Part shown: positions 1,097 to 18,617 of the stretch, one piece after another | Position numbering within the stretch: position 1 is the stretch's first letter | How the letters are laid out: each line of letters begins with the position of its first letter | From: a virus | Reading direction: 5' to 3' (one strand) | Virus record (IMG/VR): IMGVR_UViG_3300042456_000349 | Span: 1 to 22,354 of that record | DNA length: 22,354 nucleotides | The notes under the pieces: generated by a model | Told to the model about the DNA's origin: nothing | The model's input: only the letters and a program-made list of their open reading frames with translations | Databases searched by the model: none | Made by a program: the position numbers and the translations under genes

Positions 1097-1254
1097 ACCG
1101 AGGCTGGCTGCTCAACGACATCCTCCGCGCCATCTTCGGCCAGCCCAAACCCCGCCGCGAGCCGCTGCAACTGCCCGATGACCAGAACTATGGCGGGCCT
1201 GAACGGCGCTTCGATGGCTGGCCTAACACGACATGGAAAGCGCCGTGGCTGTGA
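1093..1254 (+). CDS. 53-aa unknown protein with GTG start
   Basis: A GTG at 1093 shares GTGA with the preceding stop and opens a 53-codon frame ending in TGA at 1252-1254. The product has a short helix (GWLLNDILRAIFGQ), then a proline/arginine-rich linker and a tryptophan-rich tail (DGWPNTTWKAPWL). Its own stop lies inside another GTGA (1251-1254), which is probably the start of the QueD-like gene. Both junctions fit the operon style, so I take it as a real small gene of unknown function. The short length keeps confidence moderate. Confidence 0.55.
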   Translation: MNRGWLLNDILRAIFGQPKPRREPLQLPDDQNYGGPERRFDGWPNTTWKAPWL

Positions 1255-1562
1255 CCTTGCAATGGGCAGATGCTCACCTTTCGTCAGCTCACCGAAACGC
1301 TGCCGGAAAACTGCACGGCCACACTTGGCGGGTTCGGGCCTTCTGGCCGCATGACGGAACGGACGTTCTGGAGCGGCAACGGTTGCTGCGGAAATGGGCG
1401 TCTGCCCTAGATCACCGGGAACTGCCCGCGCATCTGACCCTATCCGAAGACCTCGCGGGCCACCTGGGCGCTGCCGTCAAGGCTTGCCGCGTTGAGGTAT
1501 GGCGCGAGGCGGAAGGCTTGGGGGCTGTGTGGATTGCACAAACAAAGGAGATCGAAATATGA
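1251..1562 (+). CDS. queD-like: QueD-like 6-carboxytetrahydropterin synthase family protein
   Basis: Family members convert dihydroneopterin triphosphate to 6-carboxytetrahydropterin, the second step of preQ0 (7-deazaguanine) synthesis. The zinc-site pattern is visible: His9 in ADAH, then His22 and His24 in LHGHTW. The catalytic Asp-His pair is at 54-55 (LDHRELP), and SEDLA matches the conserved TSExLA stretch. At about 103 residues it is shorter than the usual 120. The cysteine expected three residues before the LHGH leucine is alanine (Ala18), so the reaction may differ. I prefer GTG 1251, which makes a GTGA overlap with the preceding stop; an in-frame ATG at 1233 would add six residues. 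It is followed by deoxyribosyltransferase-like and DpdA-like genes, which supports a role in base modification. Confidence 0.72.
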   Translation: MTLQWADAHLSSAHRNAAGKLHGHTWRVRAFWPHDGTDVLERQRLLRKWASALDHRELPAHLTLSEDLAGHLGAAVKACRVEVWREAEGLGAVWIAQTKEIEI

Positions 1563-1948
1563 CCACGCTTTACCTATGCGGGCCGATCAATGGCTGCACG
1601 GACGAACAGGCAACGGGCTGGCGCGAGCATGTCAAAAGCCTTTGGGCAGGCGAAACCCTGGACCCTATGCGGCGGGACTATCGCGGCAAGGAAGCGGTCG
1701 CCTATCGGGACATCGTGGAACTCGACAAGATCGACATTCAGCGATGCGACGCGGTTTTGGTCAGCTACGACAAGCCGAGCGTTGGAACGTCAATGGAAGT
1801 GCTGTTTGCGTGGCAGATCGGGAAGCCGGTTGTGGTCGTCGCTGACAGCAAGACAACGATCTCCCCTTGGTTGCGATACCACGCGCACAGGATCGTTGGG
1901 GACTATGAAACTGGCGTTGCCGTCGCGGCTGAACTCTCTCGCGAATGA
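1559..1948 (+). CDS. Nucleoside 2-deoxyribosyltransferase-like protein
   Basis: The 129-residue product has the order of motifs expected for the deoxyribosyltransferase superfamily. YLCGPING near residues 5-12 matches the N-terminal nucleotide-binding loop, and LDPMRRDYRG follows at 34-43. The segment from about 52 contains DIVELDKIDIQRCDAVLV. GTSME at 76-80 puts Glu80 in the position of the catalytic glutamate, followed by FAWQIGKPVVVV. Such enzymes move deoxyribose between bases or hydrolyse nucleotides. The start is ATG 1559 (ATGA overlap with the QueD-like stop) with AAAGGAG upstream. Between a QueD-like and a DpdA-like gene it may supply or salvage a modified nucleoside, but this is inference; nucleotide hydrolysis is an alternative. 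Confidence 0.72.
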   Translation: MTTLYLCGPINGCTDEQATGWREHVKSLWAGETLDPMRRDYRGKEAVAYRDIVELDKIDIQRCDAVLVSYDKPSVGTSMEVLFAWQIGKPVVVVADSKTTISPWLRYHAHRIVGDYETGVAVAAELSRE

Positions 1949-2631
1949 CGATTCACTACCACGGCACCCCGATTACCCCAAACGAAGTGCTTTTAAGCAT
2001 TTCTGGCCGTAATTTTTGCGTGTCTCACGCTAGGCCAGATCAAGTCAAAACAGTTCATGCAATTGGTCAGTCCGTGATGCTGGACAATGGCGCTTTTTCT
2101 AAACACACTACGGGCCGGCAAACGAATTGGACAGCATACTATTCTTGGTGTGACCAATGGCTAGACTATCAAACAACTTGGGCCGTAATTCCAGACGTGA
2201 TTGATGCTGGAAGCCAGGAACAGGACGCGCTAATTCGAGAATGGCCGCACGGCCAGCGCGGCGCTCCCGTATGGCATACGGGGGAGCCTATTTCTCGGCT
2301 TCTTGCCCTATGTGACGCATGGCCCCGTGTGTGTGTAGGCTCTACAGACGAGCATTGGCAGGTTTTAGGCCCTGCATGGCGTAGGCGTATGGATGAGGCG
2401 TTTAATGAACTTGCGAAGCGCCATAAGCGCATTCCTTGGCTGCATATGTTGCGGGGAATGCAACTGGCCCTGCATCATTATCCCTTCTCCAGCTTGGACA
2501 GCACAGACATAGCCCGCAATCATCACCTAATCCATAATTCTGCTTTGGCTATGGCTACGCGGTGGGACGCCGCGCAATGCCCTCCGCGATGGGAAATTAA
2601 AGCCCAACAACAAGATTTGTATGGAGACTAA
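1945..2631 (+). CDS. dpdA-like: DpdA-like TGT-fold DNA base-modification protein
   Basis: The 228-residue product resembles phage DpdA proteins, relatives of tRNA-guanine transglycosylase that exchange guanine in DNA for a 7-deazaguanine. SVMLDNGAFS at 43-52 corresponds to the TGT DSGGFQ motif, with Asp47 as the base-binding aspartate. AVIPDVID follows at 80-87. VCVGSTDEHW at 129-138 matches the glycine-rich loop, and SLDSTDIARN at 183-192 resembles the TGT segment with the nucleophilic aspartate (Asp185). The TGT zinc cluster (CxCxxC) is absent, and the protein is shorter than TGT (about 370). It starts at ATG 1945 in an ATGA overlap. The DNA looks more AT-rich than its neighbours, suggesting separate acquisition. 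The substrate (preQ0, preQ1 or other) cannot be read from sequence. Confidence 0.72.
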   Translation: MTIHYHGTPITPNEVLLSISGRNFCVSHARPDQVKTVHAIGQSVMLDNGAFSKHTTGRQTNWTAYYSWCDQWLDYQTTWAVIPDVIDAGSQEQDALIREWPHGQRGAPVWHTGEPISRLLALCDAWPRVCVGSTDEHWQVLGPAWRRRMDEAFNELAKRHKRIPWLHMLRGMQLALHHYPFSSLDSTDIARNHHLIHNSALAMATRWDAAQCPPRWEIKAQQQDLYGD

Positions 2632-15657: not shown

Positions 15658-16653
15658 TTAGCCTCCCGCAGCCAAGATTGCAGCGTCAATCTCTTTAAGC
15701 GTAGGAACTCTTACGGGGGCCGGTCCACCGCCACCCGATCCACCGCCCCCACGCGGAGCAATGTAAGACATCTTGCGCTGGCGGTCGGTATACATTTGCC
15801 AAATCTGCTTTTCGCCCTCAGACAGCGGTTCGCCATTGGCAACCTTTTGGGCCACAAGGCCAATGACGCCTTCGGGCGACTGGATTGGCACAGGTGGCTT
15901 AATGGCATTCCTGAACGCCGGATTGTCGCTTAGGCCCATTTCAGCAGCCATCATCTGCTGCTTTTGCTCATCCGTCGCATCAAGGCCCATAATCGCCTGA
16001 ACCTTTCGGTCACGATCCTCTTGCGCCTGCATGGAAGCTTCCATGTCCGCATACATCTTCGGCGCAATGCTTTCCAGATACGGGTTCCCGCTCATGGTTG
16101 CATCCATAAGCATCTGCTGCTGTTCTTCGGGCGAGCGAGCGCGGCTCTGGAGTTCAGCCGGGACTTGCCGCATGTCGGACATCTGAGGCGCGACTTCAGG
16201 GCCTTGCGGCATAGGCATAGGCTGTGCCGGGGCCATAGGCGGCGGCGCTTGTGGGGCCGACATCTGTTGCGCTTGTTGAGGCATGAACGATTGTCCCGCC
16301 TGCTTCAGCCGGTCGATAATCCCGGTCTGTTCAGGCTGGAAGTTCGGCGGCGCGATGAAACGATCCTGGGGCGTCTCTTGCTTCAGGCCCTTTACGAAGT
16401 CCATAGCCTCAGTGCGAGCCTTGGCGCGGCCCGCAGCAATGGCTTCATCGGCCTTTGCCTCCTTGCGATTCGCAGCATAGCCAGACAACGCCCTAGCCAG
16501 CACTTCCGCGAAAGGAATAGGGGCCTGAATGCCGTTGTATGACTGGACCTGAATGGGCGAGGTCGATTGTTCACGCAAGGCCGCTGCTAGGCGCTTCTGG
16601 CGTTCAGCGGCCTCTTGTGTGGCCCTGTAATCGGTAAGGCTGACTTGCGGCAT
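15658..16653 (-). CDS. Virion-associated protein rich in Gln, Met and Pro (331 aa)
   Basis: Residues 1-100 are helical and charged (TDYRATQEAAERQKRLAAAL). A proline/methionine/glutamine-rich linker at about 125-155 (APQAPPPMAPAQPMPMPQGP) and another helical domain with EEQQQMLMDATMSGNPYLES follow. Near the C-terminus a GGGGSGGGG linker precedes a final helix (VPTLKEIDAAILAAGG). Flexible linkers between helical domains suit a protein that is unfolded for passage through the tail. The gene shares TAATG with the repeat-rich protein upstream. I infer an internal or ejection protein from order and composition; no family is certain. Confidence 0.65.
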   Translation of the reverse strand: MPQVSLTDYRATQEAAERQKRLAAALREQSTSPIQVQSYNGIQAPIPFAEVLARALSGYAANRKEAKADEAIAAGRAKARTEAMDFVKGLKQETPQDRFIAPPNFQPEQTGIIDRLKQAGQSFMPQQAQQMSAPQAPPPMAPAQPMPMPQGPEVAPQMSDMRQVPAELQSRARSPEEQQQMLMDATMSGNPYLESIAPKMYADMEASMQAQEDRDRKVQAIMGLDATDEQKQQMMAAEMGLSDNPAFRNAIKPPVPIQSPEGVIGLVAQKVANGEPLSEGEKQIWQMYTDRQRKMSYIAPRGGGGSGGGGPAPVRVPTLKEIDAAILAAGG

Positions 16654-18617
16654 TACAGAGCCCCGTAGTTGACCATATAGAAGCCGTCGTCGCGCATAGT
16701 GACGGCTTCAGGTTTCACGTGCAACACTTCTTGCGCCATCACGCCGCGTTCGCGATGACCGTCAATGTCATACTCATAGACACCAACGCCGTTGGCATGT
16801 GTGCCCACGCGCTCAATGTTGGACTTCAGGCGCATATCGCTGGTGAAGCTAAACATGCCCATGCCAGCCCCGGCAACGCTACCAAGCGCCGCCATATTGG
16901 CATTACGAGCCGCCATCTGTTGACCGTAAACGTCCATGCCATACTTGGCCTGATCGCCCGCCGCCTGATAGACCGGAGCCGCATTGACGTTCGCACCCGT
17001 GTAGCCCTGGAATTGCGGGTTCTGGATTTGCGATGCACCCATGAGCGCCGTGATCTCGTTAAGAGGCTGTGACCGGAGTTGCAGAGCGCGAGCAAGGGCC
17101 TGATCGGAAGCCATATTGCCGAATTGAGCGCCCTGCATGTTCTGGTTGTATTGTTGCGCCGCCGCTGAGTTATACAGCCCGGCAATATTTGCAGCTTGCC
17201 CATAGTTCTGCTGCATCGCAGCATTGTTCATGCCTTGGGCGCTCATGGCGTTAGCAAGGTTTGCGTTTACAGCATCGTTCTGCATTTGCTGTGCCGTTGC
17301 GCCCTGTCCAAAGTTTTGACCAATCGCAGCGTTCTGCATTTGCTGTGCAGTTGCGCCTTGGCCAAAGTTTTGGCCGATGGCCTGATTTGTAAGTTGCTGA
17401 GAAGTGACACCGCGACCGAAGTTTTGATTGATGGCGTCGTTTTGCGAGTTCTGCGCCATAAGCGCATTGCGCATATTCTGGTCAATTGCTTGATTGCGAA
17501 GTTTTTGCGCCTCAAGACCTTGGTTGAAGTTCTGAAACACAGCCGCATTCTTGAGTTGCTGTGACGACAGCCCTTGACCGAAGTTCTGGCCGATGGCCTG
17601 ATTGCTGACTTGAAGCGCCGCAAGTCCTTGGCCGAAGTCCTGGCCGAGCCCTTGGTTATAGAGCCCCGCCGCTGTAGCCGCCTGTCCAAAGCCCTGCTGG
17701 TTAGCCGACATGTCAAGACCAATGCCCTGCATGGCGGCTTGGGTGAACATGTCGTTTTCTTGCTGGCCCTGCTGCTCCATAGCCCGGTTGTAGGCTTCGG
17801 TGCCGGGGCGGAAGCCCTGATTGACCAGTTGGGTCCGCAGGCCCTCGCGCTGGCGCTGCATCTGAGGCGCGAGCCGTTGCAGGATAGCCTGCTGACCTGT
17901 CATCCCCGCATTGACCGGCATATTGGCGACGCCGGACAGGTTCAGGTTGCGTTGCGCCGAACCATACTTCGCGTCCCGCATACCGGAAGCCAAGCCAAAC
18001 TCATTGGCGTTGATGGCGTTTGCAAGGCCAAAATCGCCCGCGCCAAGGCTACGGGCCTGTTCAAAGTCGCCGTAGTTGATGCCCCTGGATTGACCGTAAT
18101 CGTTCGGATTGACGCTACCCGCCTGTCCGTAGGCATTAGGATTGACCGCCCCGGCCTGTCCGTAATCGCCCGCATTGACGCCACGGTTTTGTCCGAATTG
18201 GTTTGCATCAACGCCTTGCGCCATGCCGTATTGGCCCATCGTCGGGCCATAATTCAGGGCAGGGCCTTGATTGAACGAGGTCTGAATTCCGGGGCCTTGG
18301 TAGTCGAAAGGCGTTCCGAGAATCTTTTGCGCGTTGGCAACGCCCTGGCTTCCGAGGTCGGCAAACTCGCGCTGCACCCGCTGCTGTGCATTCAACGCGG
18401 CTTGCGCGTCAGGCGTGAGCGTCTGCGTAATCGTGGGCTTCGGCATATTGGGATCGCTCATATCCCAACTGACGGTTTGGTTCCCATACGGGCTGATGAT
18501 GTTAGGATTGCTGATGCCAGCCGTCTGCAAGCCCGCGTTAAGGTTGGCTTGCCCCTGTGCTGTAGCCGCCGCCGCGTAATCAGGCGCGGGGGGCGGTGCT
18601 GGCGTTTTCTTTCCCAT
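16653..18617 (-). CDS. Repeat-rich virion protein with C-terminal S74 chaperone (654 aa)
   Basis: Three parts are visible. Residues 134-221 hold eight 11-residue repeats of the type GVNAGDYGQA. Residues 304-501 hold eleven 18-residue repeats of the type QAIGQNFGQGATAQQMQN. Residues about 593-654 match the S74 intramolecular chaperone: TSDMRLKSNIE, then YEYDIDG, RGVMAQEVL and MVNYGAL. In S74 proteins the chaperone helps the preceding part to trimerise and then cuts itself off; Ser593 and Lys598 have the S-D-x-R-x-K spacing of the cleavage dyad. The N-terminus is proline/alanine-rich. It is probably a trimeric tail or internal shaft protein. The start is ATG 18617, with a 38-base overlap with the GNAT-like gene. 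Confidence 0.8.
   Translation of the reverse strand: MGKKTPAPPPAPDYAAAATAQGQANLNAGLQTAGISNPNIISPYGNQTVSWDMSDPNMPKPTITQTLTPDAQAALNAQQRVQREFADLGSQGVANAQKILGTPFDYQGPGIQTSFNQGPALNYGPTMGQYGMAQGVDANQFGQNRGVNAGDYGQAGAVNPNAYGQAGSVNPNDYGQSRGINYGDFEQARSLGAGDFGLANAINANEFGLASGMRDAKYGSAQRNLNLSGVANMPVNAGMTGQQAILQRLAPQMQRQREGLRTQLVNQGFRPGTEAYNRAMEQQGQQENDMFTQAAMQGIGLDMSANQQGFGQAATAAGLYNQGLGQDFGQGLAALQVSNQAIGQNFGQGLSSQQLKNAAVFQNFNQGLEAQKLRNQAIDQNMRNALMAQNSQNDAINQNFGRGVTSQQLTNQAIGQNFGQGATAQQMQNAAIGQNFGQGATAQQMQNDAVNANLANAMSAQGMNNAAMQQNYGQAANIAGLYNSAAAQQYNQNMQGAQFGNMASDQALARALQLRSQPLNEITALMGASQIQNPQFQGYTGANVNAAPVYQAAGDQAKYGMDVYGQQMAARNANMAALGSVAGAGMGMFSFTSDMRLKSNIERVGTHANGVGVYEYDIDGHRERGVMAQEVLHVKPEAVTMRDDGFYMVNYGAL
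17115..17708 (-). repeat. Eleven tandem 18-residue (54-bp) coding repeats
   Basis: Each unit is 18 codons with a consensus near Q-A-I-G-Q-N-F-G-Q-G-x-x-x-Q-Q-x-x-N. The units run without gaps from residue 304 to 501. Those at 412-429 and 430-447 are nearly identical in protein (17 of 18 residues) and differ at several bases; others have diverged further, so most copies are old. Confidence 0.85.
17955..18218 (-). repeat. Eight tandem 11-residue (33-bp) coding repeats
   Basis: Units of 11 codons run from residue 134 to 221 with a pattern G-V-N-x-x-x-Y/F-G-Q-A-x. Gly, Asn and a Tyr or Phe at fixed spacing are conserved. The units are diverged at the DNA level and keep the frame throughout. Confidence 0.8.

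Follow-up and report, generated by a model that had tools for sequence, protein, structure and literature searches.

How does a phage that carries no genes for making preQ0 come by a 7-deazaguanine to put into its DNA, and what might a relative of QueD and a relative of the nucleoside deoxyribosyltransferases be doing in one operon with the enzyme that would insert it? The question is raised by a three-gene cassette in the window, by which we mean the whole of the IMG/VR fragment IMGVR_UViG_3300042456_000349 (22,354 bp, from an uncultured phage), and it bears on how DpdA phages without preQ0 genes obtain their base and on why some of them carry dADG. Our preferred answer, which we consider rather probable, is that this is a compact, host-fed cassette for 7-deazaguanine modification of DNA, in which a small QueD paralogue (mini-QueD) and an NDT/DNPH1-like protein serve as accessory enzymes.

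Table 1. Features of the cassette and its right-hand border
Feature	Position	Strand	Description
Mini-QueD	1233..1562	+	109 aa from ATG 1233, or 103 aa from GTG 1251; Cys-less 6-carboxytetrahydropterin-synthase paralogue
Ribosome-binding site of NDT-like gene	1544..1550	+	AAAGGAG, read from the sequence
NDT/DNPH1-like gene	1559..1948	+	129 aa; deoxyribosyltransferase or N-glycosidase family
Short DpdA, MED16 type	1945..2631	+	228 aa; predicted guanine / 7-deazaguanine exchange on DNA
Right edge of accessory slot	2632		blastn similarity to siblings L236, L237 and L238 restarts

Are the genes real, and where do they sit?

An earlier, sequence-only reading had described three adjacent genes coupled by ATGA, and this is borne out, with overlaps at 1559-1562 (mini-QueD and the NDT-like gene) and 1945-1948 (the NDT-like gene and dpdA). 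Since the products match the PTPS, Nuc_deoxyrib_tr and phrog_887 families, and since four further IMG/VR contigs carry the identical cassette, these reading frames are not there by chance. Megablast of the 22,354-bp fragment against phage records returned no match, and neither did the defence-system models that we ran.

The cassette lies in an accessory slot, and exactly at its right edge, just past the dpdA stop codon, alignment with three sibling phages starts again at the nucleotide level. In one of these siblings (L237) the slot is occupied by a C5 cytosine DNA methyltransferase (L237:3683-4540), which lends mild support to DNA as the target of DpdA; a point against our reading is that in other siblings the slot holds small genes of no known function and no modification gene. 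A GcrA-like protein at 2621-2875 of the fragment suggests an alphaproteobacterial host, and a 654-aa protein encoded on the minus strand (16653-18617), with many NQAIGQNFGQG-like repeats, is probably a part of the virion.

Is the third gene really a dpdA?

On homology, the assignment of the 228-aa protein to the short DpdAs of the MED16 family is well supported. Both of the motifs that had first marked it as DpdA-like, DNGAF and LDSTDIARN, are present, the match to phrog_887 has an E value of 1.4e-48, and the DpdA of the Pantoea phage MED16 is 41% identical over 84% of the query (profile E 1.7e-56). The DpdA profile, built from 28 relatives, also picks up DpdA-like proteins of the phages Erebus, ZHS and phiSM (E 4e-10 to 4e-11), each of which adjoins preQ0 genes. 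Three aspartates, D47, D84 and D185, are invariant in the 28 relatives, and D47 and D185 align with Asp residues of the Erebus DpdA; from this we infer that all three belong to the active site and have a catalytic role. The Pfam TGT family gives no match to the protein, and a full-length TGT architecture is absent.

Structure prediction, put forward earlier as a check for a TGT-like barrel, gave a divided answer, in that the AlphaFold model (pLDDT 87) is barrel-like and resembles viral proteins that carry a queuine tRNA-ribosyltransferase annotation (E 1e-9), whereas Foldseek against the PDB found generic barrels only (E above 0.001), with no TGT among the top 50. Profile matches to T4 polynucleotide kinase in the PDB were judged to be chance.

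Where does the base come from?

A sister contig of 39,389 bp carries a cassette identical to that of the fragment and, because its terL gene is split between the contig ends, represents a near-complete genome. When this genome was searched for FolE, QueE, QueC and radical-SAM proteins there was no match, and its only PTPS match is mini-QueD itself. With no FolE, QueE or QueC match in a near-complete genome, the base must therefore be supplied by the host and is not phage-made preQ0. The options left by the sequence-only reading can be narrowed accordingly, since use of host preQ0 is favoured in so far as it means host supply of the base, and the idea that the rest of the pathway is encoded upstream has become unlikely.

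Can the QueD relative still be a QueD?

The first gene had been called a relative of a preQ0-pathway enzyme, and this is right as a statement of homology and fails as an assignment to QueD. Pfam PTPS matches the protein at E 8e-4, just under the Pfam cut-off, and its AlphaFold model (pLDDT 94.5) has E. coli QueD (4ntn, E 3e-7) as top PDB match. The metal-binding His triad (H14, H22, H24) is present in all 54 mini-QueD relatives, across which E66, a Glu that QueD has too, and Arg85 are likewise invariant, and the Asp-His pair is retained in the fragment's copy. Compared with the QueD/PTPS family, however, mini-QueD is shorter, and it scores 18.1 bits against the QueD equivalog TIGR03367, far under the cut-off of 89.25.

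The catalytic Cys of QueD and a recognition Glu close to its C terminus are there to abstract a proton and to recognise the pterin. The Cys, which should precede LHGH, is Ala in the fragment's protein (NAAGKLHGH) and is missing from nearly all of its relatives, where Asp, Glu, Gly, Thr and others stand instead (an acidic residue in about 28 of the 45 tabulated), and the Glu, found in 4/4 canonical QueDs aligned, is replaced by Arg85 in 54/54 mini-QueDs. Because one residue is lost and the other replaced, the usual QueD reaction is unlikely, and to judge by its residues the protein would have the QueD fold and not be a working QueD. With tblastn, 50,697 phage records gave a match in Caulobacter phage DMCA only, which has DpdA as well, and a single scan of bacterial genomes returned mostly ordinary QueDs, most of them with the catalytic Cys.

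What kind of enzyme is encoded in the middle?

That the middle gene is nucleoside deoxyribosyltransferase-like is confirmed by its match to PF05014 (Nuc_deoxyrib_tr; E 3e-10, 40.5 bits against a cut-off of 28.8). With DNPH1/Rcl and the nucleoside 2-deoxyribosyltransferases of that family it shares the PS-G--E motif with the catalytic Glu, E80, which occurs in all 74 relatives, and D56 is also kept; it differs from them in its invariant CGPINGC, DPMRRDYRG (a loop) and SPW..H motifs and in its linkage to DpdA. A search of the PDB with the family profile found only DNPH1/Rcl, a dNMP N-hydrolase (E 0.003). A 60% identical relative lies on a Bradyrhizobium elkanii plasmid (NZ_CP126028.1:40636-41001, a 67-kb record).

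How tightly are these genes linked to dpdA?

Mini-QueD loci were collected by an alignment-based scan of IMG/VR and DpdA was sought in their 4-kb flanks, where it was found at 55 of 59 viral loci, mostly adjacent; within 8-kb flanks of the NDT-like gene it was found at 55 of 80 viral loci, the loci of these linkage sets not all being independent and the NDT scan favouring relatives that carry two motifs. As a control, the DpdA profile used there was applied around an unrelated, Sak4-like gene of the same phage group (5842-6570 in the window) and found DpdA at 6 of 80 loci, four of the six being the fragment's own phage type. The deoxyribosyltransferase had been thought no standard member of the pathway, but in addition to recurring beside DpdA it lies, in the three cultured phages Erebus, ZHS and RHph_X3_2, within a full preQ0 cassette, and because these are complete de novo cassettes, salvage as its sole role is weakened.

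A set centred on DpdA (71 loci, 42 clusters at 90%) shows how varied its company can be, with the preQ0 transporter YhhQ in 15 clusters, mini-QueD in 12, QueE in 7, QueD in 6, NDT in 3 and none of these in 9. YhhQ and mini-QueD never occur together (0/42; hypergeometric P 0.0016), and Hutinet et al. found YhhQ in some phages with no correlation with a group (PMC6884629). The operons take the form DpdA-NDT-VUT in eight clusters, QueE-mini-QueD-DpdA in seven, mini-QueD-NDT-DpdA, which is the fragment's type, in two, and QueE-mini-QueD-DpdA-QueC in one (L139); the QueE members of mini-QueD operons score at or near the TIGR04508 cut-off. Base exchange, an NDT-like enzyme and a preQ0 transporter are brought together in the DpdA-NDT-VUT operons of L149, L153, L159 and L191, and the QueE-mini-QueD-DpdA sets of L013, L017, L019, L034 and L084 belong to phages without a QueC or FolE match.

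What might the cassette do, and what else could it be?

We propose that the host's FolE, QueD, QueE and QueC would provide the 7-deazaguanine, that DpdA would swap some guanines in the phage DNA for it, and that the swap would shield this DNA from restriction. The original suggestion of 7-deazaguanine in phage DNA has held up, through homology and gene neighbourhoods, as regards the identity of DpdA and the 7-deazaguanine setting, and modification of DNA by the cassette is itself likely. Mini-QueD most likely acts on an intermediate of the 7-deazaguanine pathway shortly before insertion and would thereby set which base, or how much of it, reaches DpdA; CDG is the best candidate substrate because several mini-QueD relatives are operonic with QueE, a choice guided by gene order and residue changes only. 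The NDT/DNPH1-like enzyme, in turn, most likely frees the base from (modified) deoxynucleotides by cutting their N-glycosidic bond. More tentatively, mini-QueD may be an enzyme new to 7-deazaguanine metabolism, one whose chemistry is new among QueD relatives and gives a DNA base other than preQ0 or ADG, and may form with the NDT-like enzyme a host-fed pathway distinct from the de novo and transporter-fed types.

A more specific idea, possible although we lean against it, is that mini-QueD is a CDG decarboxylase, so that DpdA would insert plain 7-deazaguanine (dDG). Cui et al. 2023 reportedly described dDG and predicted a decarboxylase, DpdL, which would likewise be an extra CDG-acting enzyme in phage cassettes. 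The QueE-mini-QueD-DpdA operons without QueC fit such a role, and the Arg that replaces Glu could hold a carboxylate, but L139 has QueC as well and tblastn located mini-QueD in just the one cultured phage. We think it unlikely that mini-QueD, despite its altered catalytic residues, has remained a CPH4 synthase that boosts the preQ0 pathway before QueE: fold and metal site are those of QueD, the gene is operonic with QueE (and in L139 also with QueC), canonical QueD occupies the same place in other cassettes, and the frequent acidic residue might be cited in its favour, yet the Cys is gone from nearly all members and the Glu from every one of the 54, and one subclade with mini-QueD upstream of dpdA (L024, L025, L062), which includes neighbours of the DpdAs nearest to that of the fragment, has lost even the Asp-His pair while keeping HxH, E66 and R85.

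The remaining doubts concern DpdA. It could act on host or phage tRNA rather than DNA, given that its fold family is common to tRNA-guanine transglycosylases and that its kind is often so annotated, but MED16 DNA contains dADG (PMC8306585), the protein is short and without the TGT match or architecture, and L237 has its DNA methyltransferase in the slot, all of which makes a tRNA target highly improbable. It is also quite improbable that the cassette leaves the DNA almost or wholly unmodified in the natural host. DpdA-only phages can have none or traces, as in phage Orion, where there is no modification, and in MED16 and Salmonella phage 7-11, where it is small at about 0.02-0.3% of G (PMC8306585, PMC6884629), whereas here the accessory genes are conserved and coupled in many lineages, which implies selection for function.

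How does this compare with known systems, and why does it matter?

The host-fed cassette that we favour has in common with the DpdA-only phages (group 3 of Hutinet et al. 2019; MED16, 7-11) a short DpdA of the MED16 family, a lack of preQ0 synthesis genes and a dependence on the host for the base, but its dpdA has mini-QueD and an NDT-like gene as coupled partners, neither of which lies beside DpdA in MED16. The full cassettes of Erebus, ZHS and RHph_X3_2 resemble it in having an NDT-like gene among their deazaguanine genes and, in Erebus and ZHS, a DpdA-type gene, although these two proteins are larger; unlike the fragment, all three phages have genes for FolE and QueC, to which Erebus and RHph_X3_2 add QueD and QueE.

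A single DpdA family is found in cassettes with YhhQ, mini-QueD or canonical QueD, and NDT recurs across the types; with such alternative partners and a recurrent NDT, substrate supply therefore becomes testable. A family of QueD paralogues in search of a function gains a context, and there is a cultured phage for the test in DMCA, which infects Caulobacter vibrioides, a harmless laboratory host. At 11 of 106 dereplicated DpdA loci, a C5 cytosine methyltransferase-like gene cluster lies within 2.5 kb of dpdA.
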